Shown: one piece after another, positions 13,993 through 31,433 of the stretch
How positions within the stretch are numbered: the stretch's first letter is position 1
Layout of the letters: each line of letters starts with the position of its first letter
NCBI GenBank assembly: GCA_021202925.1
Contig: JAJQCD010000015.1
Location: 1 to 56,745, forward strand
DNA from: Clostridiales bacterium
Lineage (GTDB): Bacteria; Bacillota; Clostridia; Lachnospirales; Lachnospiraceae
DNA: 56,745 nucleotides
Reading direction: 5' to 3'
Position numbers and translations under genes: made by a program
Notes under the pieces: generated by a model
Told to the model about the DNA's origin: nothing
What the model saw: the letters and a program-made list of their open reading frames with translations, nothing else
Database searches by the model: none

Positions 13993-14295
13993 ATGACGAC
14001 AAGAGTTGCTTTGATCGCGATCATTGTGGAGGAAGGCTCATCCACGGAGGAACTGAACCGCATGCTCCACGATGCGGGCAGGTATATCATCGGACGGATG
14101 GGAATTCCCTACCGGGCCAAGGGCGTAAATATCATCAGTGTGGCGATTGACGCGCCGCAGGACGTCATCAGTTCGCTGGCCGGACGCATCGGACGTCTGA
14201 CCGGTATTACGGCGAAAACGGTCTACTCCAATGTGGTATCCGGAGATGACGAACCAGAAGGAGGCAAAGGCAAAGATGCTGCGACCCATATCTGA
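13993..14295 (+). CDS. TM1266-type putative iron-only hydrogenase system regulator
   Basis: A 100-residue protein of the TM1266 family, small ferredoxin-fold/ACT-like proteins related to the NikR C-terminal domain and conserved beside [FeFe]-hydrogenase maturation genes. The family has been proposed as regulatory; no DNA-binding domain is visible. It opens with TTRVALIAIIVE and carries the family-typical RMGIPYRAKGVNIIS segment. The start follows AGAAGGGGGAG. It is the first gene of the operon and overlaps the next gene by 20 bases. Its presence ties the nitrogenase-like pair to [FeFe]-hydrogenase biology. Confidence 0.88.
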   Translation: MTTRVALIAIIVEEGSSTEELNRMLHDAGRYIIGRMGIPYRAKGVNIISVAIDAPQDVISSLAGRIGRLTGITAKTVYSNVVSGDDEPEGGKGKDAATHI

Positions 14296-15637
14296 ACAGG
14301 AAACGGCAGAGAACATGCGGTCCACATATCCGACCGGAAATGTCTCTGTGCGGATGGCGGAGGCCTCTTTCCCCGCACCGTTTTCCCCCGGACTGGAATT
14401 CAATTCTCCCGCTCACGGAACCTGGAACATCGTCCATACGGGAATGCTCGTGCCGGGCGCACAGCAGATCTATGTCTGCGCTTATAACTGCATGCGGGGC
14501 GTGGTACTGACCGCCGCAGAGATGAACGCCTCCGACCGTTTCTCTTTCGTCATTCTCAGCGAACGGGACCTGATCCTGGAGAACCTGGAGGACGTCACCA
14601 TCGAGGGAGTCACAGACGTCATCCGCAAGCTGAACCGGCGTCCTCCGGCTGTGTTTCTGTTTACCGTCTGTGTCCATCATTTCGCCGGATGTGACTTAAG
14701 GCGCATCTACCGGACGCTGGAAACACGTTTCCCGGATATCGTCTTTGTCCGCTGTTATATGGATCCGATTATGCAAAAGCTCAGTCTGACGCCGGATCAG
14801 AAGCTGCGGAAAGCCATGTATGATCCGCTTCCCATGACCGATGCCGACCCCATGTCGGTCAGTCTCATCGGCAGCGATCTGGTACTGGATGAGACCTCGG
14901 ATCTGAAACGCATTCTCCGGCATTGCGGGCGACGGATACGCGAGACGCCGTCCTGCCGGACCTGGGAAGAATATCTGCAGCTGGCCTGCGGATCGCTGAT
15001 TCTCACCATCTGGCCCAGCGCCCATTACGGAGCCGGGAAACTCGCCGAACGACTCGCAAGACCGTATCTCTATCTTCCATCCTCCTTCGGTTACGACGAA
15101 ATCGAACGGGAACTCCAACAAATGGCGAAGGTGCTTGGCGAACCGGAAACCGGCCTCGATTCCGCCGCCGAACAAAATGACTGCGAGCGGGCGTTGCATG
15201 CAGCGCATGCGGTCATCGGTGATACGACCATCGAGCTGGATTATACCTTTCATCCACGTCCGCTCGGCCTGGCCCGGCTGCTTCTTGCGCACGGCTTCCG
15301 GGTAGAAACCGTTTATCTGGATGCCATCAGCCGCGAGGAAGAGGAGGATTATCACTGGCTTCGGGAACACGCGCCGACCCTGCAACTGACCGCAACGAAT
15401 CACGTCCGTTCACGCGTCATCCCGCGCGATGGCGGCGACCGGGTTCTCGCGATCGGTCAGAAAGCCGCCTGGTTTGCCGGAACCAGGCATTTTGTCAATC
15501 TGGTGCAGGGCGGCGGGCTCTGGGGATACGACGGCATCCGGCGTCTGGCCACGCTGATGACCGATGCTTTTCTCCATGAAAAGGACACGGCTGACCTGAT
15601 TATTCGCAAAGGATGGGGGTGCGAAAGCTGCATATGA
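14276..15637 (+). CDS. Nitrogenase component 1-like protein, D-type (copy 1)
   Basis: A 453-residue homologue of the NifD/NifE/BchN superfamily. Potential cluster ligands are C68 and C72 (ICAYNC-like region) and C132 and C139. The C-terminal GGGLWGYDGIRRL matches the GFDG segment near the end of NifD-type proteins. It is not a true NifD: it is shorter and I do not see the FeMo-cofactor Cys and His contexts. The start at 14276 was chosen for AAGGAGG eleven bases upstream. It overlaps the TM1266-type gene and is ATGA-coupled to the K-type gene. It is paralogous to 24139-25527. Confidence 0.85.
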   Translation: MLRPISEQETAENMRSTYPTGNVSVRMAEASFPAPFSPGLEFNSPAHGTWNIVHTGMLVPGAQQIYVCAYNCMRGVVLTAAEMNASDRFSFVILSERDLILENLEDVTIEGVTDVIRKLNRRPPAVFLFTVCVHHFAGCDLRRIYRTLETRFPDIVFVRCYMDPIMQKLSLTPDQKLRKAMYDPLPMTDADPMSVSLIGSDLVLDETSDLKRILRHCGRRIRETPSCRTWEEYLQLACGSLILTIWPSAHYGAGKLAERLARPYLYLPSSFGYDEIERELQQMAKVLGEPETGLDSAAEQNDCERALHAAHAVIGDTTIELDYTFHPRPLGLARLLLAHGFRVETVYLDAISREEEEDYHWLREHAPTLQLTATNHVRSRVIPRDGGDRVLAIGQKAAWFAGTRHFVNLVQGGGLWGYDGIRRLATLMTDAFLHEKDTADLIIRKGWGCESCI

Positions 15638-16794
15638 GACAGTCTTACCGAATCCTGCCGGTTTACACAGCGGATGTATCCGGAATCTGCTCGGCACTCT
15701 ATGAGCTGGGCGGGATGACCGTCATCCATGATCCATCCGGCTGCAATTCCACCTACAACACGCATGATGAAATCCGCTGGTACGACCAGGACAGCCTGAT
15801 CTACATATCAGGACTCTCCGAAATTGACGCCGTCACCGGCAACGACCAGAAGTTCATCGACGCACTTGTGAAAGCTGTGCGGGAATTGCATCCTGCCTTT
15901 CTTGCGCTTGCCAGTTCCCCGATTCCGTTCATGAGCGGAACCGATTTCCCCGCACTCGCACGGATCGTCGGGAAACAGACCGGCGTTCCTTCCTTTTTTA
16001 TTCCTTCAAACGGAATGCATGATTATGTCCGGGGCGCCGGAGCCGCCCTCGCGCAGATCGCCACATCCTTTGTCACCGAAGGAAAACCGGCGGACAAAAG
16101 CCGCATAAACGGACGGGCAGCAAATATTCTCGGTATGACGCCGCTCGATTTTGCCGCTCCCGGACAGGCCGCTTCCCTGAAACGGCTTCTCTCTGCTCAC
16201 GGCTGGCATACGGTCTCCATCTGGGCCATGGGAGACGGACTGGACGCCATCCGGCAGGCCGGAAGCGCAGACGTCAACCTTGTTGTCTCTTCCGTCGGCC
16301 TTGCCGCCGCCAAAGTCCTGCAGCAAAAATTCGGAACGCCCTACGTCGTCGGACTGCCCACCGGCCTGTTTGCCAGGCAGGTCTTTGCCGCCATGGAACG
16401 AGCCATGGAACAGGGACAAAACCAGTATCCCTGCAAAGACCGAAGTGCAGGAAAGCCGGATTCCACCGTCACCATCATCGGCGAACCGGTAACCTGCGCC
16501 AGCATTGCCGCGGCATTCGAACGACGGCACGGCGTTCCGGTGCGACTGCTCTGCCCGCTCGAAGCTCTCGATGAGGTTCTGGCACCCGGCGATATCCCGG
16601 TTCAGGGCGAAGAGGAAGCCGAGCCGTGGCTTGAGCAGGCCAGGGCCGTCATTGCCGATCCGCTCTACCGCCCTGTCTGCAGCCAGGGAGCGGTATTTTA
16701 TCCTTTGCCGCATGTGGCGTTCTCCGGGCGGATTTATCTGAAACAAATGCGTGATCTGACCACATGGGAGGTGGAATACAATGGGAATGAATGA
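15634..16794 (+). CDS. Nitrogenase component 1-like protein, K-type (copy 1)
   Basis: A 386-residue second component 1-like subunit, expected to pair with the upstream D-type protein. C37 in DPSGCNSTYN sits where NifK-type subunits bind the P-cluster. The C-terminal PHVAFSGRIYL matches the PHxAxSGR motif common in nitrogenase-like proteins and shared with copy 2 (25524-26555). The start overlaps the upstream stop (ATGA at 15634). Its stop overlaps hydF by 14 bases. Substrate or cofactor unknown; scaffold or reductase roles are both possible. Confidence 0.82.
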   Translation: MRQSYRILPVYTADVSGICSALYELGGMTVIHDPSGCNSTYNTHDEIRWYDQDSLIYISGLSEIDAVTGNDQKFIDALVKAVRELHPAFLALASSPIPFMSGTDFPALARIVGKQTGVPSFFIPSNGMHDYVRGAGAALAQIATSFVTEGKPADKSRINGRAANILGMTPLDFAAPGQAASLKRLLSAHGWHTVSIWAMGDGLDAIRQAGSADVNLVVSSVGLAAAKVLQQKFGTPYVVGLPTGLFARQVFAAMERAMEQGQNQYPCKDRSAGKPDSTVTIIGEPVTCASIAAAFERRHGVPVRLLCPLEALDEVLAPGDIPVQGEEEAEPWLEQARAVIADPLYRPVCSQGAVFYPLPHVAFSGRIYLKQMRDLTTWEVEYNGNE

Positions 16795-17995
16795 CACACC
16801 GTCCGGCGAACGGATACATATCGGTTTTTTCGGACGCAGAAACGCGGGCAAATCCAGCCTGGTCAACGCCATCACCGGGCAGGATCTGGCGGTTGTCTCC
16901 GACACGCGGGGAACCACGACCGACCCGGTGCAAAAATCCATGGAACTGCTTCCCCTGGGGCCGGTGATGATCATTGATACCCCCGGCTTTGACGATGAAG
17001 GGGAACTGGGTGCGCTGCGTGTCCGCAAAACCTGCCAGGTTTTAAACCGCAGCGACGTGGCCATCCTGGTGGCGGACAGCACCGAAGGACTGGGGGCATG
17101 TGAACAGGAGCTGATCCGCCTTTTCCAGAAAAAGGAGATCCCGTACCTCATCGCCTGGAACAAATGCGACCTGCAGAAACGACTTCCCGTCGATTCCTCT
17201 CAGGAATGCTGCGTCAGCGCGACCGCCCGCACCGGAATTGAATCACTGAAGGAACGAATCGGACGTCTTGCAAAGACCTCCGACGACAAACTGATGCTGG
17301 CAGGCGATCTGGTTCATCCGGGGGACGTTGTCGTCCTTGTGATCCCCATTGACAAAGCTGCCCCGAAAGGACGGCTGATCCTGCCGCAGCAAATGGTGAT
17401 CCGCGATCTGCTGGAAGCGGACGCGGCGGCAGTCTGCGTCAAGGAATACGAACTGCGCGAGGTCATGGAGCAGTTCCGGACGCCGCCCGCACTGGTCATC
17501 ACAGACAGCCAGGTGTTCGCCAAGGTATCTGCCGACGTGCCTCCCTCGATCCCGCTGACCTCCTTTTCCATCCTCATGGCACGCAAAAAGGGACTGCTTG
17601 ACGCGGCGGTCGCCGGTGTCCGCGCAATCGAGGCATGTAAAGACGGCGATACGATTCTGATCGCGGAGGGCTGCACGCATCATCGCCAGTGCGACGACAT
17701 CGGCAGCGTGAAGATTCCCCGCTGGCTGCGCAATTATACCGGAAAACAACTGCGCATCGAAACCTGCTCCGGCATGACCTTCCCGGACGATCTGTCCCGC
17801 TACTCTCTCATCATCCACTGCGGTGGCTGCATGCTGAATGAGCGTGAGGTACGTTACCGCATGAAATGTGCGCAGGATCAGGGGGTGCCGATCACCAATT
17901 ACGGAACCACCATTGCGTATATACAGGGCATTTTGAAACGGAGCATCGCCATGTTCCCCCACCTGCTCGCCGGGTGGGACGAAACACCGCAATGA
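16781..17995 (+). CDS. hydF: [FeFe]-hydrogenase maturation GTPase HydF
   Basis: GTPase and scaffold on which the 2Fe subcluster of the H-cluster is carried before transfer to apo-hydrogenase. The 404-residue protein has G1 GRRNAGKSS (18-26), G3 DTPG (66-69) and NKCD near residue 130. The C-terminal [4Fe-4S] site C298-T-H300 followed by H346-C347-G-G-C350 fits the CxH-x(about 45)-HCxxC signature. The start follows GGGAGG at nine bases and overlaps the K-type gene. All key residues are intact, so an active HydF is expected. Confidence 0.96.
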   Translation: MGMNDTPSGERIHIGFFGRRNAGKSSLVNAITGQDLAVVSDTRGTTTDPVQKSMELLPLGPVMIIDTPGFDDEGELGALRVRKTCQVLNRSDVAILVADSTEGLGACEQELIRLFQKKEIPYLIAWNKCDLQKRLPVDSSQECCVSATARTGIESLKERIGRLAKTSDDKLMLAGDLVHPGDVVVLVIPIDKAAPKGRLILPQQMVIRDLLEADAAAVCVKEYELREVMEQFRTPPALVITDSQVFAKVSADVPPSIPLTSFSILMARKKGLLDAAVAGVRAIEACKDGDTILIAEGCTHHRQCDDIGSVKIPRWLRNYTGKQLRIETCSGMTFPDDLSRYSLIIHCGGCMLNEREVRYRMKCAQDQGVPITNYGTTIAYIQGILKRSIAMFPHLLAGWDETPQ

Positions 17996-18032
17996 TTCCG
18001 CTTCCTTAAGGAGGAAAGAAGGTGCAACGACA

Positions 18033-19394
18033 ATGAGAACCGAACGGGACGCACTGGGCGAACGTACGCTGCCGGATGACGCTCTCTATGGGATCAACAC
18101 CGCGCGCGCCCTGGAGAATTTCGCGCTGGGCGGCCATCCGGTCCGACACAGCCTGATCCGGGCCATGATCCTGGTGAAAAAAGCCGCGGCACAGACTTAT
18201 CTGCACATCGGCGAGGGACGGCCGGACGTCGAACAGGCCATCGTAGCTGCCTGCGACCGGCTGCTCGCTGCCGATCTGACCACTGCCTTTCCCCTGCAGG
18301 CTCTCCAGGGCGGCGCGGGAACCTCCACCCATATGAATGTCAACGAGGTGCTGGCGAACCTGGCTCTGCGGGAGCTCGGATACGAGCCCGGCCGCTACGA
18401 CATCATCCATCCGCTCGACGATGTAAACCGCGGTCAGTCGACAAACGACGTCTATCCGACCGCGCTCCGGATCGCATCCATCTGCCAGCTCGGTCTCCTG
18501 TCTGAACAGTGTGCGAAGCTGCAGACCGCACTCCAGGAAAAGGAGAATGCCTGGGAGACCATTCCCAAGCTGGGGCGGACGGAATGGATGGATGCGGTTC
18601 CCATCACGCTCGGCGGAGAATTCGGCGCTTACGCCCAGGCCATTGCCCGCGACCGCTGGCGGCTCTACAAGGCAGAGGAACGCCTGCGGGTCGTGAACAT
18701 CGGCGGCACTGCCGTCGGCACCTCCCAGGGCGCCGCACGGCGATATCGCTTCGGCGTCATCGAGGAACTGCGCAGACTGACCGGCATCGGGCTTGCGGCT
18801 GCGGAATATCCCATGGATATCACCCAGAATAACGACGTGTTTGTGGAAACATCCGGCCTTGCCAAAGCTCTTGCCGTCAATCTGATGAAAATCGCCGATG
18901 ACCTGCGGCGGATGAATTCCGGTCCTCACGGCGGACTCGGAGAGATTCGCCTGGCGAAGCTGCAGCAGGGAAGTTCCATCATGCCGGGCAAAGTCAATCC
19001 GGTCATCCCGGAGATGACGATCCAGTGCGCCATCAAAGTCATGGCAAATGATTCCGCCATTTCTCAGGCCGCCTCCCACGGGGAGTTTGAGCTGAATGCC
19101 TTCCTGCCCCTGATCGCCGACTGCATGCTGGAAAATCTGGAATTGCTGACGGAATGCACCCGGTTGTTCCGTGAACGGTGCATCGAACCGTTAGCAGCGG
19201 ACGAAGAGAACTGCCGCAGGCATCTGGAAGCGTCCCATGCGCAGTCCATGGCTTGGATGCCGATACTCGGCTATGACACAGTCGCCGCAATCGTAAAGGA
19301 CTATCCGCCCGAAGAAGCCCGGAAGCGACTGCAACGGGAATCGGAGAGCAAACGAAAGGAGACGGAAGGTGAAGGAAAATCAGATTCGCATTGA
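18033..19394 (+). CDS. Aspartate ammonia-lyase-like enzyme of the aspartase/fumarase family
   Basis: Predicted to release ammonium from L-aspartate (or a related substrate). The 453-residue protein has the superfamily signature GSSIMPGKVNPV (residues 313-324) and the GTST and STNDV-type active-site segments. Genes of this kind occur beside hydE and hydF in several anaerobes, where a role in supplying nitrogen for the H-cluster bridging amine has been suggested. It lies 37 bases after hydF, and its end overlaps the hydE start by 26 bases. A housekeeping aspartase or another lyase of the superfamily remains possible. Confidence 0.88.
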   Translation: MRTERDALGERTLPDDALYGINTARALENFALGGHPVRHSLIRAMILVKKAAAQTYLHIGEGRPDVEQAIVAACDRLLAADLTTAFPLQALQGGAGTSTHMNVNEVLANLALRELGYEPGRYDIIHPLDDVNRGQSTNDVYPTALRIASICQLGLLSEQCAKLQTALQEKENAWETIPKLGRTEWMDAVPITLGGEFGAYAQAIARDRWRLYKAEERLRVVNIGGTAVGTSQGAARRYRFGVIEELRRLTGIGLAAAEYPMDITQNNDVFVETSGLAKALAVNLMKIADDLRRMNSGPHGGLGEIRLAKLQQGSSIMPGKVNPVIPEMTIQCAIKVMANDSAISQAASHGEFELNAFLPLIADCMLENLELLTECTRLFRERCIEPLAADEENCRRHLEASHAQSMAWMPILGYDTVAAIVKDYPPEEARKRLQRESESKRKETEGEGKSDSH

Positions 19395-20448
19395 GCGGCT
19401 CGCGCAGGAGCAAAACCTGTCTGATGAAGATTTCCGGGTTCTGTGGCAGACCATGGATCAAGAGGATGAAGCGTTTCTCTATGCGAAGGCCAGGGAAGCC
19501 TGCCAGCGCGTCTACGGCCGCGAGGTCTATCTGCGCGGCCTGATCGAGTTCTCCAGCTACTGCAAAAACAACTGCTATTATTGCGGCCTGCGAAAAAGCA
19601 ACGCCCACGCCGAGCGCTATCGTCTCACGCAGGAGCAGATTCTGGAGTGCTGCGACGAAGGATACCGTCTCGGGTTTCGCACCTTTGTCCTGCAGAGCGG
19701 CGAGGACCCGTACGGCACCGATGACCGCATCTGCCGGATCGTCGCCGCCATCCGCCAGGCTCATCCGGACTGTGCGATCACCCTTTCCATCGGCGAGAAA
19801 AGCCGTGAAAGCTACCAGGCGTATTTTGACGCCGGGGCGGACCGCTACCTGCTGCGCCACGAGACCGCCGATCCCGTTCACTACCGCGCACTGCACCCAC
19901 CGGAGCTTTCCTGCGAAAACCGCAAGCGCTGTCTCTTTGACCTGAAGGACATCGGTTATCAGACCGGCTGCGGCATCATGGTCGGATCGCCGGGACAAAC
20001 CATCGACCAGCTGTTAGCTGATCTGCATTTCATGAAAGAACTCGGCCCGCATATGATCGGCATCGGCCCCTTCATCCCGCACCGGGATACGCCCTTCCAT
20101 GACCGCGCGCCGGGGACACTCACCGATACCCTGCACCTGTTAGGCATCCTGCGCCTGATGTTCCCGCATGCTCTCCTTCCGGCGACGACCGCCCTCGGGA
20201 CCATTCATCCGCGCGGGCGGGAAAAAGGCATTCTCGCCGGAGCAAACGTCGTCATGCCAAACCTTTCTCCCGCGGCCGTCCGCGGAAAGTATCTGCTCTA
20301 CGACGGGAAAATCTGCACCGGCGAGGAAGCCGCTCAGTGCCACGAATGCATGGAGGCGCGCATCCGCACCACTGGCTATGAGGTTGTTGTCAGCCGTGGA
20401 GACTGGCGACCAGAGGACAACGTCCCCTCCCCGCATCGAACGGATTGA
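19369..20448 (+). CDS. hydE: [FeFe]-hydrogenase maturase HydE, radical SAM
   Basis: Radical SAM enzyme that processes the Fe-Cys-CO-CN synthon in H-cluster assembly. The 359-residue protein carries the CxxxCxxC cluster motif at C65, C69 and C72, preceded by the HydE-typical RGLIEFSSYC. It starts with GTG seven bases after AAAGGAG, inside the aspartase-like gene. In the known pathway HydE acts on the product of HydG, which is not in this window. A biotin synthase-like or PylB-like assignment is less likely given the neighbours. Confidence 0.93.
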   Translation: MKENQIRIERLAQEQNLSDEDFRVLWQTMDQEDEAFLYAKAREACQRVYGREVYLRGLIEFSSYCKNNCYYCGLRKSNAHAERYRLTQEQILECCDEGYRLGFRTFVLQSGEDPYGTDDRICRIVAAIRQAHPDCAITLSIGEKSRESYQAYFDAGADRYLLRHETADPVHYRALHPPELSCENRKRCLFDLKDIGYQTGCGIMVGSPGQTIDQLLADLHFMKELGPHMIGIGPFIPHRDTPFHDRAPGTLTDTLHLLGILRLMFPHALLPATTALGTIHPRGREKGILAGANVVMPNLSPAAVRGKYLLYDGKICTGEEAAQCHECMEARIRTTGYEVVVSRGDWRPEDNVPSPHRTD

Positions 20449-20479
20449 CCATCATTCTGGGAAAATGGAGGAATCTGTA

Positions 20480-21880
20480 ATGAAAACCAAAAAGAAAATG
20501 GAAATGCCGGACACCTGGCTGATTGTATTTGCGATTATTGTCGTGATGGCAGTCCTGACATGGGTAATCCCGTCCGGCGCTTATGAGTATCAGACCATCG
20601 ACGTCAACGGCACGTCCCGAAACGTGGCAATCGCCGGTTCCTATCATCTGATTGACAAGGCCGAGACCACGCGCGCATCCCTGCTTGGCGTCTTTGCCTC
20701 TCTCTACCAGGGCTGCTTAAGCGCCGCGGACATCATCTTTGTCATCCTCTGCTGCGCGGCCACCTTTGGCGTCATGGTAAAAACCGGAGCCTTTCACGCC
20801 GGCATCGGCAAGGTCATCCAGAAGGTCGGTGACCGCGAAAAACTGCTGATCCCGATCCTGATGATCCTGTTTGGTCTCGGCGGTTCCGTCTTCGGCATGC
20901 TCAGTGAATTTTACGGATTTTACCCGCTCGTCGTCGGCATCGCCGTCGCCCTCGGCTACGACGCCATGGTGGGATTTGCCATCCTCGCACTGGGCGAATA
21001 CATCGGCTTTACCGCCGGTACTCTGAATCCCTATACCGTAGCCGTCGCCCAGTCGATTGCCGGTGTGGAACTGTATTCCGGCGTTGGATTCCGGGCCGTT
21101 TCTTTCATCGTATTCATGGGAATCTCCATTCTCTATGTGATGCGATATGCGGCAAAGATAAAGAAAAATCCGGAGCTTTCCATCATGAACGGAGTGTCCT
21201 GCATTCATTCCTTCAAACGGGAAGACCTGGATCAGTATGAATTCAATACCCGGCATGCCCTGATCCTGCTGGACGTCCTCGTCACGCTGATCATTCTGAT
21301 GTTTGGCCTTATGCAATGGGGCTGGGGCTACAAGGAATTATGCGGTCTTTTCATTATCATGTCCGCAGTTGCCGCCTGCTTTGCCGGCTGGGATCCCAAC
21401 ACATACTGCAGGGAGATGCTGGCCGGTATGAGAGGCGTGCTCTGGGGCTGTATCCTCACCGGACTGGCAAAGGGAATCGTCGTGATCATGGAGAACGCCT
21501 GTATCCTCGACACCATCATCTATTTCTTAAGCCAGCTTTTGCAGAACGCTCCGTCTGCCGTTTCCGCTCAGCTCATGCTGCTTGTGCAGACCGTGATTAA
21601 CTTCTTTGTCTCCTCCGGTTCCGGACAGGCAGCCGTCACCATGCCCATTATGGCGCCCCTGGCCGATGCCCTTGGAATCAGCCGCCAGGTCGCCTGCCTG
21701 GCCTATCAGTTCGGCGACGGCCTGTCCAACCTCCTGTGGCCTACCTGCGGCATCGTCATTATCTGCGGCCTGGGCGACATTGACTATTCCCGCTGGCTGA
21801 AATGGTTTGCCAGACTGTTTCTCATTCTTCTGGTTGCGCAGATGATCCTCATTGAAGCAGCCGTTGTGATGGGACTGTAA
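20480..21880 (+). CDS. YfcC-family membrane carrier
   Basis: A 466-residue polytopic membrane protein with about 11-12 hydrophobic helices, of the YfcC family (ion transporter-like superfamily that also holds C4-dicarboxylate and basic amino acid carriers). The substrate cannot be read from sequence. The start at 20480 follows GGAGG at eight bases, 31 bases after hydE, and the gene is followed by an M20 amidohydrolase 24 bases later. Carrier and amidohydrolase pairs usually import and cleave an N-acyl amino acid or dipeptide, which could feed the aspartase-like enzyme; this is inference. Confidence 0.85.
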   Translation: MKTKKKMEMPDTWLIVFAIIVVMAVLTWVIPSGAYEYQTIDVNGTSRNVAIAGSYHLIDKAETTRASLLGVFASLYQGCLSAADIIFVILCCAATFGVMVKTGAFHAGIGKVIQKVGDREKLLIPILMILFGLGGSVFGMLSEFYGFYPLVVGIAVALGYDAMVGFAILALGEYIGFTAGTLNPYTVAVAQSIAGVELYSGVGFRAVSFIVFMGISILYVMRYAAKIKKNPELSIMNGVSCIHSFKREDLDQYEFNTRHALILLDVLVTLIILMFGLMQWGWGYKELCGLFIIMSAVAACFAGWDPNTYCREMLAGMRGVLWGCILTGLAKGIVVIMENACILDTIIYFLSQLLQNAPSAVSAQLMLLVQTVINFFVSSGSGQAAVTMPIMAPLADALGISRQVACLAYQFGDGLSNLLWPTCGIVIICGLGDIDYSRWLKWFARLFLILLVAQMILIEAAVVMGL

Positions 21881-21904
21881 TTCATCCATACAGGGAGGCA
21901 ACAG

Positions 21905-23185: not shown

Positions 23186-23215
23186 TTGACGAACCGGGCA
23201 CTGGTTCGGTATAAT
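23186..23215 (+). promoter_or_regulatory. Promoter of the NifH-like-hyp operon
   Basis: TTGACG (23186-23191), 18-base spacer and consensus TATAAT (23210-23215). The spacer region contains GAACC (23191-23195) and GGTTC (23203-23207), an inverted repeat that could be an operator between the promoter boxes. Transcription would start near 23222, about 160 bases before the first start codon. Confidence 0.75.
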
Positions 23216-23221
23216 GAGAAC

Positions 23222-23380
23222 CAGAATAAGTCACTGACGGGATGACAGCGTCTACCCGAAAGATCGGACCGATTTGTCTGCGGACTGTGACCGCTGCGGC
23301 TTTCGCCGCACGGGAACCTGGAACCGGGAAAGAAAAGGAATGACTCTTTGTGCCGTCTGTGCAGAAAGGGTCATTTTTTT
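23222..23380 (+). ncRNA. Structured 5' leader, candidate riboswitch or attenuator
   Basis: About 160 untranslated bases between promoter and NifH-like start. Likely helices: GTCAC/GTGAC (23230-23234 with 23287-23291) enclosing CGGG/CCCG (23238-23241 with 23255-23258) and ATCG/CGAT (23263-23266 with 23270-23273); then TGCGGC/GCCGCA (23295-23300 with 23305-23310). An intrinsic terminator ends right at the start codon. AGTCA (23229-23233) is complementary to TGACT (23341-23345) in the 5' arm of that terminator, so a closing helix of the folded domain could act as antiterminator. I could not match it to a known riboswitch class. Confidence 0.6.
23339..23380 (+). terminator. Leader terminator directly before the NifH-like start
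   Basis: An 11-bp stem with one G-U pair (23339-23349 with 23365-23375) and a 15-base loop is followed by a run of seven T that abuts the ATG at 23381. The likely Shine-Dalgarno (AAAGGG, 23365-23370) is in the 3' arm, so the hairpin would also hide the ribosome site. Such a placement is characteristic of conditional attenuation. Confidence 0.8.
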
Positions 23381-24142
23381 ATGTTAAAAATTGCAGTTTA
23401 CGGCAAGGGCGGAATCGGCAAATCAACCGTAACCGCCAATCTGGCGGCAGCGTTCTCCCTCCTGGGGAAACGGGTGATTCAGATCGGCTGCGACCCCAAG
23501 GCCGATTCTACGATCAATCTTCTGGGCGGACAGCCGCTCCGCTCTGTGATGGCATACATGCGGGAGGAAAACCGGGAACCGGAACACCTGGACGAGATTT
23601 CCCGGGAAGGCTTTGGCGGTGTGCTGTGCATCGAAACCGGCGGGCCGACGCCGGGACTCGGATGCGCAGGGCGCGGCATCATCGCCACCTTCCAGCTGCT
23701 TGAGGAACTGCAGCTGTTTGAGACCCATGCACCAGATGTGGTCCTCTATGATGTGCTGGGTGACGTGGTCTGCGGCGGCTTCGCCGCCCCGATCCGGGAA
23801 GGCTATGCCGAAGACATTCTGATCGTCACATCCGGAGAAAAAATGGCGCTCTACGCGGCGGACAACATCAACCGCGCAGTGCAGAATTTTGAAGACCGCG
23901 GCTATGCGAAGGTATTCGGCGTCGTCCTCAATCACCGGAACGTAACCGGTGAAAATGAAAAGGTGCAGGCATTCGCCGAGCAGGCCGGCGTTCCCATCGT
24001 CGGGGAGATCCCGAGAAGCGACGAAATTACCTGCTGCGAAGATCAGGGGATGACCGTCATCGAGGGAGCACCCGACGCGCCGGTCAGCCGCTGCTTCCTC
24101 GAACTGGCGCAGAAGCTGCTGAAACGGGAGACGGTTCAATGA
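23381..24142 (+). CDS. NifH-like ATP-dependent reductase (nitrogenase iron protein family)
   Basis: A 253-residue P-loop ATPase that passes electrons to a component 1-type partner. The P-loop is GKGGIGKST (8-16) and CDPKADST follows. The two Cys that hold the intersubunit [4Fe-4S] cluster are present as C95 (GLGCAGRG, with the NifH-type Arg) and C131 (VVCGGFAAP). The start at 23381 leaves the leader terminator intact. Its stop overlaps the D-type gene by ATGA. It is the only NifH-like gene in the window, so it may serve both D/K-like pairs. True nitrogenase reductase is unlikely because no NifD, NifK or NifB is present. Confidence 0.93.
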
Positions 24143-25527
24143 GCCGGCCCGACTCCCGCCTCTGTCCGGCGGCCTCCTGCTTTCCGGAAAGCGGCTCTTC
24201 TCCCCGTCCCACCAACCGCAGGGCATTTTCCATGACAGCCGAAGCGCTGTACGCGGCGGGGCCGGATCACATTCCCGCAGAATTTGTCTCCGCTTCCCAC
24301 CTGATCTACAGTTCTCCGGCAACTCTGGCTTTCAACTCGCCTGGCGCCGAGGGCTTTGGCGTCAAACGGGCCGGTCTCGCCGTCCCCGGTTCCGTCATGC
24401 TGCTGGTCTCCCCGGGCTGCTGTGGGCGCAACACCGCGCTGATTGGCGCCATGGAAGCGTATCGGGACCGTTTTTTTTACCTGCTGATGGACGAGACCGA
24501 CATTGTCACCGGACGACATCTGGAGAAGATCCCGGACGCGGTCTGCGAGGTCTGCCGTTTTCTGGACACACGTCCGTCCGTCGTCATGATCTGCATCACC
24601 TGTGTGGACGCGCTCCTCGGAACCGATATGGAACGGGTCTGCCGTAAGGCAGAGGAACGCGCCGGACTTCCCGTGCGCCCCTGCTATATGTACGCGCTGA
24701 CCCGGGAGGGCCGACGCCCGCCCATGGTACATGTGCGCCAGTCGATCTATTCCCTGCTGGAACCGGCCAGGAAGCATGCGGACGCAGTCAATCTCCTGGG
24801 GCAATTCTCTCCTTACGCAGATTCCACGGAACTCTATTCCCTTCTGCGAAGCATCGGCATCCACCGGATCCGGGAGATCGCGCGTTGCCGGACCTACGAA
24901 GAATATCAGGAGATGGCGCAGGCGAATGTCAATCTTGTCCTCAACCCGGAAGTACGCTTTGCGGCTGCGGATTTTGAAAAACGGCTGCGAATTCCCTCCA
25001 TCGAGCTGCGGCGCATGTACCAGCCTGATAAAATCCGCAACCAGTACGCCGCACTGGGATCCATTCTGGGCGCATCCTTCTCTCAGGACGCATACGAAGA
25101 AGCGGCAAGAACATCCATTGCACGTTTTCGCTCCCTCTGCCCGGACGCCGCCTTCGCCGTCGGCGAATGGATGAATGGCGACGCGTTTGAATTATCCCTG
25201 GCGCTCGTTCGCGAAGGATTTTCCGTAAAAGAAATCTTCGGAACCGTTACCTCCGAAAGCTTCTTTTATTTAAAGCATCTGGCCCGGCTCAGCCCGCAGA
25301 CCGAAATCTTTTCCAATCTGGAGCCGTCGATGCTGTACTACGACGGCCGCGATTCCGGCGTGACCATCACCATCGGCAGGGATGCCGCCTTCCACCATCC
25401 GGACTGCCCTGCTGTACCGTGGAACGACGAAATCCAGCCATTCGGATACGACGGCGTCCGGCGCCTGTTCGACGCATTGTGCGCCGCCCTGTCCGGCGGA
25501 AAAACAACGAGGAGGGATCAACCATGA
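24139..25527 (+). CDS. Nitrogenase component 1-like protein, D-type (copy 2)
   Basis: A 462-residue paralogue of 14276-15637. Candidate cluster ligands are C94 and C95 (SPGCCGRNT) and C152 and C155 ([12 protein letters not shown], the position of the NifD third P-cluster Cys). The C-terminal [14 protein letters not shown] matches copy 1 and the NifD GFDG segment. It is ATGA-coupled to the NifH-like gene before it and to the K-type gene after it. Having two such pairs recalls NifDK with NifEN, where one pair is catalytic and the other a scaffold; which is which here is unknown. Confidence 0.86.
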
Positions 25528-26555
25528 AAGGACTGAGACTGGTTCTCCCGCCATTCGCTCCGGATCAGTCAGGCGCCTCGTCCGTCCTCTACGAAATGGG
25601 CGGACTCCTGGTGATCTGCGACGCGGGCGGATGCGCGGGTAATATCTGCGGATTTGACGAACCGCGCTGGTTTACACAACCCTCCGCAATTTTCAGCGCC
25701 GGACTGCGCGATATGGACGCCATACTCGGGCGGGACGACCGCCTGGTTGAAAAGCTGGCGCAGGCCGCAGAGAAGCTGGACGTTGCCTTTGCCGCCGTGA
25801 TCGGCACGCCCGTCCCCGCTGTCATCGGCACGGATTACCGGGCCCTGAGGCGGATGATCGAAAAGAAAACCGGTCTTCCCACGCTCGCAATCGAGACGAC
25901 TGGCGTCGGGCTCTACGATCAGGGAGAGGAAGCCGCATACCTGGCTCTGTTTCAGACCTTTGCCAGGGAGACTGCGCCGGTCGACACAGGAACCGTCGGC
26001 GTCATCGGCGTCACACCCATGGAATTCGGAGCCCATCATCCTCAGACCAGGATCGCTGACGCACTCCGCGCAGAGTCCTCCGTCTGCTGCTACGGCATGG
26101 GGGCCGGGATCGATGCCGTGCGTCAGGCTTCCCGGGCCAAACGAAACCTTGTCGTCGCTCCTGCCGGTCTCAAAGCCGCGCAATATCTGCAACGCACCTT
26201 TGGGACTCCCTATGAGGTCACCGATCCCTCTGCTCCCGCCCTGCTGCCGCAGACGGATTTCTCCGCGCGGCGCGTGCTGATCGTACACCAGCAGGTGACC
26301 GCAAACACACTGCGGCAGGAACTGATCCGACGCGGCATTACTGATGTCACGGTCGCCAGCTTTTTCATGATGAAGACGGAGCTTTCCGGGCCATGTGACG
26401 TCCATCTGGCCGAGGAAGAGGATTTCATCCGCCTCGTAAATGACGGCCATTTTGACTGTATCATCGGCGATCAGGTGCTCCAACGCCTGGTTCCCGCTTT
26501 CGACGGGATCTGGATCGACACACCGCATTTTGCCATCTCCGGGAGGCTGCTATGA
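25524..26555 (+). CDS. Nitrogenase component 1-like protein, K-type (copy 2)
   Basis: A 343-residue paralogue of 15634-16794, shorter than classical NifK. The N-terminal region CDAGGCAGNIC offers C32, C37 and C42 as ligands. It ends in TPHFAISGRLL, the PHxAxSGR motif of nitrogenase-like subunits. The start follows GAGGAGG and overlaps the upstream stop; its own stop overlaps hypF by ATGA. Direct coupling of a nitrogenase-like subunit to hypF is the most unusual junction of the window. Confidence 0.84.
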   Translation: MKGLRLVLPPFAPDQSGASSVLYEMGGLLVICDAGGCAGNICGFDEPRWFTQPSAIFSAGLRDMDAILGRDDRLVEKLAQAAEKLDVAFAAVIGTPVPAVIGTDYRALRRMIEKKTGLPTLAIETTGVGLYDQGEEAAYLALFQTFARETAPVDTGTVGVIGVTPMEFGAHHPQTRIADALRAESSVCCYGMGAGIDAVRQASRAKRNLVVAPAGLKAAQYLQRTFGTPYEVTDPSAPALLPQTDFSARRVLIVHQQVTANTLRQELIRRGITDVTVASFFMMKTELSGPCDVHLAEEEDFIRLVNDGHFDCIIGDQVLQRLVPAFDGIWIDTPHFAISGRLL

Positions 26556-29083
26556 ATCCGATTTCCATCTCACAGTCAGAAACCATCTGCACCCGACGGA
26601 TCCGTGTCTATGGGATCGTCCAGGGCGTCGGGTTTCGCCCCACCGTCAGCCGGCACGCCGCGGCCGCCGGAATCTGCGGCAGCGTCTGTAACAAAGGCCC
26701 TTATGTCGAAATCATCGCCCAGGGAACTGAGGCGCAGGTAGAAGAGTTTCTTACACGTCTGAAGACGAACCCACCAAAGCGGGCCGCTATTCTCAAGCTG
26801 GATATCAAGCCTGCCGGAAACGTTCCCGAATACCATGATTTCACCATCATGGAGAGTGCAAAAACCAGTGGAGAAATCTTCATTTCCCCGGACATCGCCA
26901 TCTGCGAGGCATGCAGCCAGGAGCTTTTTACCCCGGCCGACCGGCGCTATCAGCATCCGTTCATCAACTGCACCTGCTGTGGGCCGCGCCTGACCATTCT
27001 CGACGCACTGCCCTACGACCGGGAACGGACCAGCATGAAGGAGTTTCCCATGTGCCCGGCCTGTGAAGAGGAATACCACAGCCCGGACAATCGTCGTTAC
27101 GACGCGCAACCGGTCTGCTGCAACGACTGCGGACCGGAGGTTTATCTTCTGGGACGAAAGGAACGGGGGAAAGACGCCATCCGCTACGTCCGCCAGATCA
27201 TAAAAGACGGCGGCATTGTCGCCATCAAGGGAATCGGCGGTTTCCATCTCTGCTGCGACGCCACAAACGAGGACGCAGTGATGCGGCTGCGCGAACGGAA
27301 ATGCCGCCCGGCCAAGCCCTTCGCCATCATGGCACGGAATCTGGAAGCGGCGGCACGGGAATGCGAAATTCCTTCCGATGCGGTCGCCGCCATGCTGGAC
27401 GGCCACCAGAAGCCCATCATCCTCTTAAAGAAACGTCCCGGCGGCCAAATCTGTCAGGCGGTTGCGCCGGACAATCCAAAACTCGGCGTCATGCTCCCTT
27501 ACGCGCCCATCCATCTCCTGCTCTTTTGCTATGACGGCGACTGCTCCATGCCGGACTGCCTGGTGATGACCAGCGGCAACAACTCCGGCGCGCCGATCTG
27601 CAGAGATGACCGTGAAGCGAAGCAGGAGCTTTCCCGTCTGTGCGACTGCATTCTCTCGCACAACCGGCAAATCCGCATCCGTGCGGACGATTCGGTCACC
27701 GATTTCTTTGAAGGAACGCCCTATATGATCCGCCGTTCCCGCGGCTTCGCGCCGCTGCCGGTGCTTCTTGGCGCCCCTTTCTGCGGCTGTGTGGCTGCCG
27801 TCGGCGGAGAACTGAAAAACACCTTCTGCATTGCCTCCGGAAACCTGTTCTATCCGTCTCCCTATATCGGAGATCTGGAGGATCTGCGAACCGTGGATGC
27901 GCTAAAGGAAACCGTCGCGCGCTTCCACACGCTGCTGGAGACGCAGCCGCAGCTCATTGCCTGCGATCTGCATCCCCGCTATCACTCCATGGAGGTCGCG
28001 CATTCATTCGGCCTGCCGGTTTTGCCCATTCAGCACCATTACGCCCACATTGTCTCCTGTATGGCGGAAAACGATGTGAGTGACCCGGTCATCGGCGTCT
28101 CCTTTGACGGCACCGGCTATGGAAGTGACCAGACCGTCTGGGGCGGCGAATTTCTTCTCGCGGATTACCACGGGTTCACCCGTGAGGGCAGCATCGAACC
28201 CTTCTGGCAGGTCGGCGGCGACCGGTCAGCAAAGGAGGGCTGGCGCATTGCGGTTTCCATGATCGGCAGTCTGGAAAAGGATCGCCAGGCGGCTCTGGAC
28301 ACCGCAACGCGCCTCGGCCTTTGCAGCGGCCAGGAAGCGCGGATTCTGATGCGGATGATGGATCAGCATATGAACGCGATCCGCTCGACAAGCGCAGGCC
28401 GACTGTTTGACGCAGTCAGCGCGATCCTCGGCATCCGCCGCGTCTCTACCTTTGAGGGAGAGGCGTCCACTGCCCTGCAGTTTGCCGCCGAACGCTTTCT
28501 GGAAAAAATGAAAGAGCACCCGGTTCGATTCCGGGAGAATCCCAGCAGACACACGGACGAAATCGGAGAGTTACTCCTTAGCGACCAGACCGACAACCGC
28601 CTGCTTCTGGCAACCGGCGCCCTGGTGAGAACGATGTATGAACGCAGACTGGCCGGAGAATCTCCTGAGCAGCTGGCCTGCTTCTTCCATGAAACGCTGG
28701 CCGCACAGATTGCGGCTGCCTGCAGGAAAATCCGCGAGAAGACCGGCGTGACACGCGTGGCACTGAGCGGCGGCGTATTCCAGAATCTGCTGCTGGTACA
28801 CCTGACAAAGGAACGCCTGACCGAAGATGGATTCGACGTACTGCTCCACAGCCTGATCCCGCCAAACGACGGCGGCATCGCACTGGGACAGGCGGTTGTC
28901 GCCATGCAGTATCTGAAAGGCAAAGCAAACCACAATGACACAATCAGCACAAACGAGCCCGAGGGAGCATGCTCACCCGCGGCCAACGGCGAACCGGATC
29001 GTGACATATTTTGTCACAATTCAATGAATACAGGCTTAACGAATACGTTTGCGCATTCATTAAACAACAAATATCAATCGTGA
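26552..29083 (+). CDS. hypF: Carbamoyltransferase HypF
   Basis: Makes a carbamoyl group from carbamoyl phosphate and transfers it to the C-terminal Cys of HypE, the first step to the cyanide ligands of [NiFe]-hydrogenase. The 843-residue protein shows an acylphosphatase domain (VYGIVQGVGFRP, 19-30), paired zinc-finger Cys (C118/C121, C140/C143, C168/C171, about C190/C193), a YrdC-like domain and a Kae1-like domain with H495-H496-x-x-H499. The last 60 or so residues extend beyond the usual end and are encoded by AT-rich, dyad-rich DNA. It is cotranslated with the nitrogenase-like genes. Confidence 0.96.
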   Translation: MNPISISQSETICTRRIRVYGIVQGVGFRPTVSRHAAAAGICGSVCNKGPYVEIIAQGTEAQVEEFLTRLKTNPPKRAAILKLDIKPAGNVPEYHDFTIMESAKTSGEIFISPDIAICEACSQELFTPADRRYQHPFINCTCCGPRLTILDALPYDRERTSMKEFPMCPACEEEYHSPDNRRYDAQPVCCNDCGPEVYLLGRKERGKDAIRYVRQIIKDGGIVAIKGIGGFHLCCDATNEDAVMRLRERKCRPAKPFAIMARNLEAAARECEIPSDAVAAMLDGHQKPIILLKKRPGGQICQAVAPDNPKLGVMLPYAPIHLLLFCYDGDCSMPDCLVMTSGNNSGAPICRDDREAKQELSRLCDCILSHNRQIRIRADDSVTDFFEGTPYMIRRSRGFAPLPVLLGAPFCGCVAAVGGELKNTFCIASGNLFYPSPYIGDLEDLRTVDALKETVARFHTLLETQPQLIACDLHPRYHSMEVAHSFGLPVLPIQHHYAHIVSCMAENDVSDPVIGVSFDGTGYGSDQTVWGGEFLLADYHGFTREGSIEPFWQVGGDRSAKEGWRIAVSMIGSLEKDRQAALDTATRLGLCSGQEARILMRMMDQHMNAIRSTSAGRLFDAVSAILGIRRVSTFEGEASTALQFAAERFLEKMKEHPVRFRENPSRHTDEIGELLLSDQTDNRLLLATGALVRTMYERRLAGESPEQLACFFHETLAAQIAAACRKIREKTGVTRVALSGGVFQNLLLVHLTKERLTEDGFDVLLHSLIPPNDGGIALGQAVVAMQYLKGKANHNDTISTNEPEGACSPAANGEPDRDIFCHNSMNTGLTNTFAHSLNNKYQS

Positions 29084-29097: not shown

Positions 29098-29123
29098 ACC
29101 ATAACCAGCAGGAGGAAAAGGAA

Positions 29124-29333
29124 ATGTGTGTAGGATTGCCAGCAAGAATCGTAACCATGAATCAGGGAATGGCCCTGGTCGACGCGGGCGGCGCGAGAAG
29201 AGAAGTCTCCGCCCAGCTTCTTGACGATCTGGAGCCGGGCGACTATGTAATGGTTCACGCAGGAATCGCCATCGCAAAAATCACGGAAGAAAACAGCGAC
29301 GAAACCGACCGCATGATGGAGGATCTGTTCTGA
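29124..29333 (+). CDS. hypC: Hydrogenase maturation chaperone HypC
   Basis: A 69-residue HypC/HybG/HupF-family chaperone. With HypD it carries the Fe atom while CN and CO are added, and it delivers the Fe(CN)2CO unit to the client. The N-terminal MCVGLPARI has the essential Cys2 after Met removal. An AGGAGG site lies upstream. The gene lies 40 bases after hypF and overlaps the hypD start by one base. No [NiFe]-hydrogenase large subunit, the usual client, is in the window. Confidence 0.95.
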   Translation: MCVGLPARIVTMNQGMALVDAGGARREVSAQLLDDLEPGDYVMVHAGIAIAKITEENSDETDRMMEDLF

Positions 29334-30376
29334 TGGGCACAAAGAAACCATGCGCACAGGAAATCATTTCCTCTTACGACGGTCCCAGACTCCGGATCAT
29401 GGAAACCTGCGGAACCCACACACACGAAATCTTTCGTCTGGGTATCCGGACGATCCTGCCGCCCAATCTGGAACTGATCTCCGGTCCCGGCTGCCCGGTC
29501 TGCGTGACGCCGGTCAGCTTCATCGATGAAGCGGTCATGCTCGCGCTCGAATACGGGACGACGATCTGCACCTTCGGCGACCTGGTCCGCGTACCGGGAA
29601 CCAGATATTCTCTGGCCGCCGCGCGTGCGCAGGGTGCAAACATCCGCATCGTCTATGCCCCTCTGGATGCGGTATCCTACGCGAAAAAACATCCGCACGA
29701 GTCGGTTGTCTTTCTCTCGGTCGGCTTCGAGACGACGACGCCGGCATCCTGCCTCTCCGTCCGGCTGGCTGCTGCAGAGGAACTGACAAACTTCTCGCTG
29801 CTGACAGCCAACAAAACCATGCCCGGCGCCTATCGCGCACTGAAGGACAGCGCCGATATCTTTCTCTACCCGGGTCATGTCCACGCCATCACCGGCACTG
29901 CGCTCTGCGAAGAAATGGTGAAAGAAGGCGTGAGCGGTGTGATCGCCGGATTCACCGCCGATGAAATTCTCACCGCCCTGGCTGTGGCCATCGTCCGCCA
30001 CTGGGAAGGCAGACCTTTCTTCGTCAACTGCTACCCTCGCGTCGTCCGACCCGAAGGCAATCCAAAGGCTGTCGCGCTGATGGATACGATGATGGACCGA
30101 TGCGACTCCGAATGGCGCGGACTGGGCTGCATCGCCGACTCCGGCATGCGGCTGAAAGACGAATTTGCCGCCTTCGACGCGCGACGCAGATTCCATCTGC
30201 CGCCCGTCACCGGACACGCGAACCCGGCCTGCCGCTGCGGCGACATCCTTCAGGGCAAATGCCGCCCGTGCGACTGTACCCTGTTTGGAAAAACCTGCAC
30301 GCCGGAACACCCGATCGGCGCCTGCATGGTCTCCAATGAGGGCGCCTGCTCCGCCTGGTTTCAATATTCCGTATAA
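29333..30376 (+). CDS. hypD: Hydrogenase maturation factor HypD
   Basis: A 347-residue [4Fe-4S] protein that with HypC is the platform for attaching CN and CO to iron. Key motifs are METCGTHT (C26), GPGCPVC (C54, C57) and a C-terminal Cys-rich segment NPACRCGDI followed by CRPCDC and CMVSNEGAC. All are intact. The start codon overlaps the hypC stop (TGATG). Confidence 0.96.
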   Translation: MGTKKPCAQEIISSYDGPRLRIMETCGTHTHEIFRLGIRTILPPNLELISGPGCPVCVTPVSFIDEAVMLALEYGTTICTFGDLVRVPGTRYSLAAARAQGANIRIVYAPLDAVSYAKKHPHESVVFLSVGFETTTPASCLSVRLAAAEELTNFSLLTANKTMPGAYRALKDSADIFLYPGHVHAITGTALCEEMVKEGVSGVIAGFTADEILTALAVAIVRHWEGRPFFVNCYPRVVRPEGNPKAVALMDTMMDRCDSEWRGLGCIADSGMRLKDEFAAFDARRRFHLPPVTGHANPACRCGDILQGKCRPCDCTLFGKTCTPEHPIGACMVSNEGACSAWFQYSV

Positions 30377-30428
30377 CAACTGCCCCTGCGAATCACCAGA
30401 TATCATATGTAGAAAGGACCCCAGCCAT

Positions 30429-31433
30429 ATGAACCAGACCGTAACGCTGGCCCACGGCGCCGGAGGCAGACAGACCTCCGAGCTGATCGACCAGGTCTTC
30501 AAAACGCATTTTTCCAACCCGGATCTGACTGCCGACGATGCGGCAGTTCTCCCTGCTCCGACCGGGCCGATCGCCATGACGACCGATGGCTTTATCGTCT
30601 CGCCGGCCTTCTTTCCGGGTGGCAACATCGGCAAACTCTCCGTCTGCGGCACGGTCAACGACCTCGCCTGTATGGGTGCGAAGCCTCTTTACCTCTCCTG
30701 CGCCTTCGTCATTGAAGAAGGATTTCCCATGGAACAGCTGGAACAGATCGCCGCTTCCATGGCCGCCACCGCCTCCGAAGTCGGCGTACGGATCGTCTCC
30801 GGCGACACCAAGGTAGCCGGGAAAGGCCAGGTGGACGGAGTCTTTATCACAACAACCGGCATCGGACAGCTCACAGACGGCGTCCGCACCTCCGGCGCCT
30901 TTGCGAAGCCCGGCGACCGCGTCATTGTGACCGGCGACATCGGTCGGCACGGCTGCACCATCCTGCTCGCGAGAGAAGATTTCGGCATTGAGACCGACGT
31001 AACCAGCGACTGCGCGCCGCTCTGGCAGGCTGTCCGCTCCATTCTTGATGTGACGACCGACGTCCATGTGATCCGCGACGCGACCCGCGGCGGCGTCGGC
31101 ACCGTCCTCTACGAAATCGCTGCCCAAAGCCAGGTCGGCATCCGCCTCGACGCAAACGCCATCCCGGTCGCAGACAGCGTCCGCGGCGTCTGCGGTATGC
31201 TCGGCCTCGAACCGCTGTATCTGGCATGCGAAGGAAGACTGGTGATCGTCACCCCGACAGAGCAGACGGACTCGGTTCTGAACGCCCTGCGCCGCATCCC
31301 TGCTTCCAGGGAAGCCACTGTCATCGGCGAGATCACCGCGGATCATCCCGGATATGTCACCCTGACGACAGCCATCGGTGCCCAGACCATTCTCCCCGCT
31401 CCCGGCGGCGAACTCCTCCCCCGCATCTGCTGA
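30429..31433 (+). CDS. hypE: Hydrogenase maturation factor HypE
   Basis: Dehydrates the carbamoylated C-terminal Cys to a thiocyanate and donates CN to HypC-HypD. The 334-residue PurM/AIR synthetase-like protein begins with the family-typical AHGAGGRQT and ends in LLPRIC, so the essential C-terminal Cys is present. The start at 30429 is preceded by AAAGGA. With hypC, hypD and hypF it completes the iron-diatomic pathway, but hypA and hypB for nickel insertion are not here. Confidence 0.96.
   Translation: MNQTVTLAHGAGGRQTSELIDQVFKTHFSNPDLTADDAAVLPAPTGPIAMTTDGFIVSPAFFPGGNIGKLSVCGTVNDLACMGAKPLYLSCAFVIEEGFPMEQLEQIAASMAATASEVGVRIVSGDTKVAGKGQVDGVFITTTGIGQLTDGVRTSGAFAKPGDRVIVTGDIGRHGCTILLAREDFGIETDVTSDCAPLWQAVRSILDVTTDVHVIRDATRGGVGTVLYEIAAQSQVGIRLDANAIPVADSVRGVCGMLGLEPLYLACEGRLVIVTPTEQTDSVLNALRRIPASREATVIGEITADHPGYVTLTTAIGAQTILPAPGGELLPRIC

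Follow-up and report, generated by a model that had tools for sequence, protein, structure and literature searches.

In the textbook pathway, the maturation of [FeFe]-hydrogenases relies on HydG, which forms CO and cyanide from tyrosine as an Fe(CO)2CN unit. In the [NiFe] pathway HypF and HypE form cyanide from carbamoyl phosphate and HypCD carries an Fe(CN)2CO unit, and NifH and nitrogenase are able to reduce CO2 to CO. Here we describe a gene cluster that joins genes of these types in a Clostridiales bacterium of the Lachnospiraceae (assembly GCA_021202925.1). The window analyzed is a stretch of 56,745 nucleotides, contig JAJQCD010000015.1. Two plus-strand gene groups spanning 13993–31433 encode, first, TM1266, DK1a, DK1b, hydF, aspA and hydE and, second, a nifH-like gene, DK2a, DK2b, hypF, hypC, hypD and hypE (ending at 31433), where DK1 and DK2 are two pairs of nitrogenase component 1-like (D/K-like) genes. 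A preliminary description of the window had named all of these genes, and family scores and motifs bear it out. Because genomes with DK1 and HydE/HydF nearly always lack HydG yet encode [FeFe]-hydrogenase, the DK1-centered gene set would very probably constitute a HydG-independent route to the H-cluster. This nitrogenase-like set, mostly together with [NiFe] maturation proteins, probably supplies the CO and cyanide in many gut and acetogenic bacteria that make [FeFe]-hydrogenases without HydG.

Genomes that lack HydG have been recorded before. A 2011 listing gave 200 genomes with HydF, 189 with HydE and 179 with HydG (PMC3226654), so that, going by those totals, the HydG gap was already visible by then. 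For eight clostridial acetogens, PMC9431212 records hydE and hydF in all, hydG in three, HypCDEF in all and HypAB in three, as well as a second HypCDE set in C. carboxidivorans; the paper offers no straightforward explanation for the pattern. It also cites work that purified an active [FeFe]-hydrogenase from C. autoethanogenum. According to PMC4355364, H2 production in C. thermocellum was lost on deletion of hydG and ech. Clostridium ljungdahlii (L079, G087) and C. carboxidivorans (L071, G082) both carry the form of the cluster that includes hyp genes (type A, see below) and have no HydG over the cut-off. The preliminary description knew of no described system with this gene set, and we likewise found none in the open-access literature, bioRxiv and most subscription papers being outside the scope of the search.

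Exchange of HydG for DK1

A class-level sample of 393 genomes with a completeness of 90% or more includes 260 with HydF and 241 with HydG. HydG occurs in 0/19 of the HydF-encoding genomes with DK1 versus 234/241 of those without it (Fisher 2e-23, kinship ignored). The HydG search was run at E 1e-80, with up to four first-look candidates scored per genome in the class searches. When 18 of the 19 DK1 genomes were searched again at E 0.001, the source genome of the window being searched separately, no HydG-model match exceeded 222 bits. The 19 genomes span nine families, eight of which also contain HydG genomes, and swaps occur within the genera g95 (six DK1, four HydG), g166 and g215.

The DK1 search, at E 1e-20, matched 27 genomes, of which 19 were counted and eight set aside: G172, G226, G240 and G338 (HydG present), G234 and G465 (neither HydF nor HydG), and G346 and G130 (106 and 75 bits). 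In a later tree DK1 forms a single clade (support 100/100, 28 rows) that holds all 19 class members, with G413 on a long branch; the first six of the genomes set aside fall outside it, and G346 and G130 are not in the tree. Taking the four HydG-encoding rows as DK1 gives HydG in 4/23 versus 230/237 (Fisher 1.6e-19), and leaving out G413 gives 0/18 versus 234/242 (Fisher 6e-22), kinship being ignored in both. The exchange result stands under either way of counting DK1 genomes.

In 50 of the genomes that carry the 80 named loci described below, only C. drakei, Oliverpabstia and one uncultured Clostridiales genome have HydG above its cut-off, which makes 1/39 genomes with type A loci, 1/8 with type B and 1/3 with untyped loci. 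Among 68 distinct DK1 genomes (71 entries minus three duplicates with identical coordinates), four encode HydG, 65 encode HydA and nine encode a [NiFe] large subunit. Genome comparison shows exchange with HydG, dependence on HydF and coupling of DK2 to HypF, and the replacement of HydG by the system is strongly supported.

The source genome (3.17 Mb, reported completeness 100%) encodes two [FeFe]-hydrogenase catalytic domains (PF02906), one of them in the window, and both have intact H-cluster cysteine motifs. It contains no HydG over the cut-off; the sole match to the model is HydE (64.7 bits versus 312), which rules out an unrecognized HydG. No [NiFe] large subunit (PF00374) was found in it, which rules out that the Hyp proteins serve a [NiFe]-hydrogenase there. 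The genome combines HydA, HydE and HydF with the full HypCDEF cyanide and Fe(CN)2CO pathway, whose usual client, the [NiFe]-hydrogenase, is not present. The preliminary description had proposed one metallocofactor system in which an iron-diatomic unit is fed to HydF. This is still the best reading, but the absence of HydG beside [FeFe]-hydrogenases had been missed. Its other proposal, a new nitrogenase-like enzyme as the end product, has become less likely: a genome that has [FeFe]-hydrogenases but no HydG most likely makes the ordinary H-cluster in another way.

Conservation of the cluster

A DK1b alignment, scanned against 84,980 species genomes, found at least 566 stretches encoding relatives, some possibly more distant than DK1, and the locus counts that follow refer to the best 80 of these. 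Their hosts include Lachnospiraceae (Blautia, Roseburia faecis, Coprococcus comes, Faecalicatena), Oscillospiraceae, Pseudoramibacter, Coriobacteriia and, in the genus Clostridium, C. carboxidivorans, C. ljungdahlii, C. drakei, C. luticellarii and C. muellerianum. Hyp genes are present in 62 loci (type A), an importer occurs instead in eight (type B), and ten are untyped, several of them being short of flanking DNA. Chance clustering was ruled out because hyp genes share the locus with DK1b in 62/80 cases.

Type A loci follow the order NifH2-DK2a-DK2b-HypF-HypC-HypD-HypE-(TM1266)-(NifH1)-DK1a-DK1b, often with HydF and HydE next. DK2 is present in 53 of the 62, and in the remaining nine the examined DNA starts in or at the hyp genes. 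A second NifH lies 5' of DK1a in 46/62 type A and 8/8 type B loci. It is missing from 16 type A loci, as it is from the window, so a single NifH may serve both D/K pairs where the second is missing. Of the 90 loci compared, no more than 10 share any further gene family. In L058, L085, L089, L094, L097 and L113 (at the locus start), DK2a is one open reading frame (ORF) of about 800 amino acids that spans the DK2b match, an apparent fusion. The source genome also contains a third NifH/DK-like set, distinct from DK1 and DK2, at locus L031 (C11), positions 9665–12302 on the plus strand.

The preliminary description had suggested that co-occurrence of the D/K-like families with both hyd and hyp genes be checked. 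DK1 is accompanied by HydF in 19/19 class genomes, but by HypD in only 13/19 (versus 49/234 genomes with both HydF and HydG), an importer replacing the DK2-Hyp half in the other six. DK2a and DK2b adjoin HypF in all 13 genomes with HypD, in one of them across a contig break, and genes for a binding protein, a permease and an ATPase adjoin NifH1-DK1a-DK1b in the six without it. In the type B genome of the window's genus, the permease belongs to the FecCD family and the binding protein to Peripla_BP_2. No DK2 was seen in the six HypD-less genomes, either as a second match in the DK1-based search or in the examined stretches, no search with a DK2 query having been made.

In the tree, importer-type DK1 proteins branch near the base of the clade and hyp-type members are nested among them; from this basal position, the importer form may be the older of the two. 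The closest relatives of DK1 in the tree belong to clusters that we call type C, in which NifH and two D/K-like genes accompany a FecCD-type importer and hyd genes are lacking (genomes G014, G027, G172, G226, G234, G240 and G465; loci L144–L148, L028 and L029). They occur in genomes with HydG and in genomes without HydF.

Because the six HypD-less genomes carry the importer by DK1, the 13 with HypD carry DK2 and HypF, and the importer branches are basal, a broader salvage function could be envisaged. Both the Hyp module (NifH2-DK2-HypFCDE, making an iron-CN/CO unit) and the FecCD-type importer (bringing one in) would feed NifH-DK1. Members of gut communities would then salvage organometallic H-cluster precursors, or iron-cyanide and iron-carbonyl compounds released by neighbors, as nutrients, and the nitrogenase-superfamily complex would be a general processor of them, with type C as the older form. 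We regard this extension as unlikely; the ligand of the importer may alternatively be plain iron or a corrinoid.

A proposed HydG-independent route to the H-cluster

In the route that we propose, HypF and HypE would produce cyanide from carbamoyl phosphate and HypCD would assemble an iron-CN/CO unit, in place of the tyrosine-derived ligands of HydG. That cyanide comes from HypE and HypF in type A clusters seems likely. NifH-DK2, whose genes adjoin hypFCDE, could deliver low-potential electrons into this step, perhaps to reduce CO2 to CO or to shift the CN/CO ratio; CO formation by DK2 is a tentative suggestion that we would not favor at present. NifH-DK1 would act as a NifEN-like scaffold and reductase that accepts the unit, reduces or reshapes it, and hands it on to HydE and HydF. 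HydE and HydF would then assemble the two-iron subcluster, with ammonium for the bridge from AspA, and load HydA. In genomes without HypCDEF, the FecCD-type importer would substitute for the Hyp and NifH-DK2 steps. AspA can supply ammonium for the bridge according to PMC11736057, and the enzyme encoded in the window is the probable source of ammonium for the dithiomethylamine bridge.

Several observations weigh against this route. The product of HypCDEF is Fe(CN)2CO and the HydG unit is Fe(CO)2CN, so a conversion of one to the other is putative, and genome matches say nothing direct about the chemistry. DK1 and HydG occur together in four genomes: G064 (Oliverpabstia), G094 (C. drakei), G105 and G015, the last being a type B member of the window's genus; G018, which has the window's syntenic cluster, lacks HydG. 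Seven HydF-encoding class genomes have neither HydG nor DK1; three of these may be assembly gaps, their genus-mates having HydG, an explanation that does not cover G052, G347, G423 and G350. No HydA was seen in three DK1 entries (G494, G107 and G109), and HydE or HydF lies in the locus in 26 of the 52 loci with at least 6 kb of downstream DNA.

The two halves can be apart, DK1 and DK2-Hyp lying on different contigs in G413 and in another order in L090. The preliminary description had named D/K-like genes without hyp or hyd genes, or free separation of the two operons, as grounds for abandoning a joint system; the outcome is mixed but informative, DK1 being constant with HydF but not with HypD.

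Some of the genomes without HydG and DK1 have other genes beside their hyd genes or transporters. In G052, which encodes HydA, a 580-amino-acid B12-binding radical SAM protein follows TM1266-hydE-hydF (L153, 11556–13298, plus strand) and is a candidate for yet another HydG substitute, so further HydG-free routes may exist. G347 and G423, of one genus and both with HydF and HydA, have a HydE-like radical SAM gene beside ABC transporter genes (L154, 344–3643, minus strand; L156, 5715–9136, minus strand), and in G347 the HydE-like score is 156 bits versus a cut-off of 254.6.

Two D/K-like pairs, a NifH and maturases of both the Hyp and Hyd types in one cluster, whose product is not known, could also mean that the D/K-like complexes are themselves end enzymes with an iron-CO/CN cofactor, and that HydE, HydF and Hyp serve them rather than HydA. 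However, such enzymes would not predict the near-perfect exchange of DK1 and HydG or the presence of [FeFe]-hydrogenase in 65/68 distinct DK1 genomes, and TM1266 and AspA belong to [FeFe] maturation. Furthermore, by a 95% threshold over alignment rows, with the site not mapped structurally, DK2a has no invariant cysteine past residue 182, where a ligand of a NifD-type cofactor (C275 and H442 in NifD) would be expected. We consider this alternative very improbable.

Alternatively, free CO and cyanide or an unrecognized radical SAM enzyme might be the source of the diatomic ligands, the DK-Hyp cluster being unrelated. HydF made with HydE alone is reported to bring HydA to roughly 1% of full activation, and to more with free CO or cyanide (work cited in PMC9431212); sub-threshold HydG-like proteins (170–222 bits) are also encoded in some DK1 genomes. 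However, the HydG model matches nothing above 85 bits in G000, G018, G160, G215 and C. ljungdahlii (G087), and neither source of ligands accounts for the exchange or for the co-location with hydE and hydF, which makes this explanation very unlikely too.

That HypCDEF works for a [NiFe]-type enzyme that escaped detection, leaving only DK1-HydE-HydF for the [FeFe]-hydrogenase, is extremely unlikely: six class genomes do have DK1 without HypD and the acetogen hosts do possess a [NiFe]-hydrogenase (see also PMC9431212, Table 1), but a [NiFe] large subunit is found in only 9/68 distinct DK1 genomes, hypFCDE adjoins DK2 in all 13 class genomes with HypD, and the second HypCDE set of C. carboxidivorans lies apart from the set near its [NiFe] genes (PMC9431212, Table 4; L071).

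If the HydG-independent route is real, a second, unrelated source of CO and cyanide for the H-cluster would alter the textbook pathway, in which HydG is seen as the source. It would explain [FeFe]-hydrogenase maturation in acetogens and gut H2 producers (Blautia, Roseburia, Coprococcus, Clostridium ljungdahlii, Olsenella) and provide a tyrosine-free way of producing hydrogenases. It would also give the nitrogenase superfamily a new task, the making of an organometallic cofactor, and join the [NiFe] and [FeFe] ligand pathways, and the acetogen pattern of PMC9431212 would become directly testable.

Genes of the window

Family calls were made against curated NCBIfam cut-offs (given as bits/cut-off), and the Pfam cut-off for PF00148 is 28.6 bits. 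A group B monomeric [FeFe]-hydrogenase gene (hydA, 9567..11210, minus strand; TIGR04105, 615/450; PF02906; motifs TSCCPAW and EGMACPGGC) lies upstream of both gene groups, outside the span covered by the preliminary description, and its product is the likely target of the maturation cluster. All genes that follow are on the plus strand. The first group opens with the TM1266-family gene (13993..14295; TIGR03959, 104/60.8), encoding a putative regulator of the [FeFe]-hydrogenase system. It is followed by DK1a (14231..15637; PF00148, 58.8 bits), DK1b (15613..16794; PF00148, 93.1 bits), the H-cluster maturation GTPase and scaffold HydF (16781..17995; TIGR03918, 559/326), aspartate ammonia-lyase AspA (18033..19394; NF008909, 531/510) and the radical SAM maturase HydE (19369..20448; TIGR03956, 573/255).

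Between the halves lie genes encoding a YfcC-like transporter (20480..21880; NF008611, 333 bits, under its cut-off) and an M20 amidohydrolase (21905..23113; TIGR01891, 335 bits). In another genome of the genus, the syntenic cluster (L026) has neither these two genes nor aspA, and the transporter and amidohydrolase are probably outside the system.

The second group begins with a NifH-like ATP-dependent reductase of the NifH2 type (23381..24142; PF00142, 293 bits), with P-loop and both cluster cysteines, adjoining DK2a (24139..25527; PF00148, 97.9 bits) and DK2b (25524..26555; PF00148, 75.3 bits). Then come the carbamoyltransferase HypF for cyanide synthesis (26552..29083; TIGR00143, 736/466), HypC (29124..29333), the Fe(CN)2CO scaffold HypD (29333..30376; TIGR00075, 373/193) and HypE (30429..31433; TIGR02124, 426/252). 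HypC, of 69 amino acids and starting with MCVGLP, was identified from its ORF, its motif and tblastn counterparts at the equivalent place in other loci. The genes of the cluster include neither HypA nor HypB, which were not searched for across the genome. The catalytic motifs of these proteins are intact: CX3CX2C in HydE; the P-loop and CxH..HCxxC in HydF; the P-loop and two cluster cysteines in NifH; MC in HypC; CGTHTH and GPGCPVC in HypD; the C-terminal PRIC in HypE; and the acylphosphatase and two zinc fingers in HypF.

The four D/K-like proteins meet no NCBIfam cut-off, the best component 1 score being 60.6 bits versus 505 (NifD, NifE, BchN, BchB and CfbD models), and for this reason they are placed in no known nitrogenase-like family and a filing under one was dropped. 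The NifH-like protein meets no NCBIfam equivalog cut-off either (304.5 bits versus 394; NifH, BchL and CfbC models). Several cysteines are conserved across loci. DK1a retains C83 in 82/86, C87 in 85/86, C147 in 86/86 and C464 in 82/86 rows (a further alignment has 31 rows), with C464 and C467 forming a C-terminal CxxC; between residues 147 and 464 it has no invariant cysteine by the 95% threshold. One cysteine of DK1b, within HDxSGCNSTY, is invariant in 91/91 rows, as are six in DK2a (37/37) and two, C37 and C42, in DK2b (42/42). Both NifH types keep the two cluster cysteines (62/62 and 21/21). In profile alignments the DK1b cysteine aligns with the conserved GC in the NifN half of a NifEN fusion, and C155 of DK2a with the matching cysteine of NifE, as would be expected for an inter-subunit iron-sulfur cluster.

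Predicted models of DK1a (pLDDT 86) and DK2a (83) have nitrogenase-superfamily folds. In Foldseek searches the three best matches of DK1a are NifN chains and the best of DK2a are NifK and NifD-type chains, with close scores across the superfamily and 11–19% identity in the best 50 fold matches. The ranking of predicted folds within the superfamily does not decide a function.

RNA elements

The leader preceding nifH (23215–23380) gives a good fold (z -3.65) with a terminator-like hairpin at its end; Rfam shows no family for it up to E 5. In nine loci a related hairpin, UGAC-SGC-RAGG-nnnn-UCC-RAGC, is located 43–227 nucleotides 5' of nifH2. A model of this hairpin gives weak extra matches only (18.8 and 18.6 bits), 5' of divergent hydF in L104 and L099; it does not match the window leader, and pair counts show little covariation. 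A shared regulatory RNA is possible. Elsewhere, the window contains a Group II intron domain RNA (RF01998, 44.4 bits; 2472–2543, minus strand), and a Clostridiales-1 RNA (RF01699, 122 bits; 7211–7386, plus strand) is found between hydE and nifH in the syntenic cluster L026.

Comparison with known systems

The type C clusters share with the importer form a NifH, two D/K-like genes, a substrate-binding protein, a FecCD-type permease and an ATPase, but no TM1266, HydE or HydF was found beside them and they fall outside the DK1 clade. Like NifEN with NifH and the rest of the nitrogenase superfamily (NifDK, BchLNB, BchXYZ, CfbCD and methylthio-alkane reductase), the system has a NifH with two cluster cysteines and the alpha/beta component 1 fold. 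Unlike them, it stays below the curated family cut-offs and has an association with Hyd and Hyp proteins that is unreported in the literature found. With HypABCDEF [NiFe] maturation it has in common full HypF, HypC, HypD and HypE with the cyanide-forming motifs; it differs in that HypA and HypB are not among the cluster genes, the genome has no [NiFe] large subunit, and the hyp genes are joined to a nitrogenase-like operon. With HydE-HydF-HydG maturation it shares HydE, HydF, TM1266, AspA and HydA, all above their curated cut-offs and with catalytic motifs intact, whereas in place of HydG this system has two nitrogenase-like pairs, NifH and HypFCDE.

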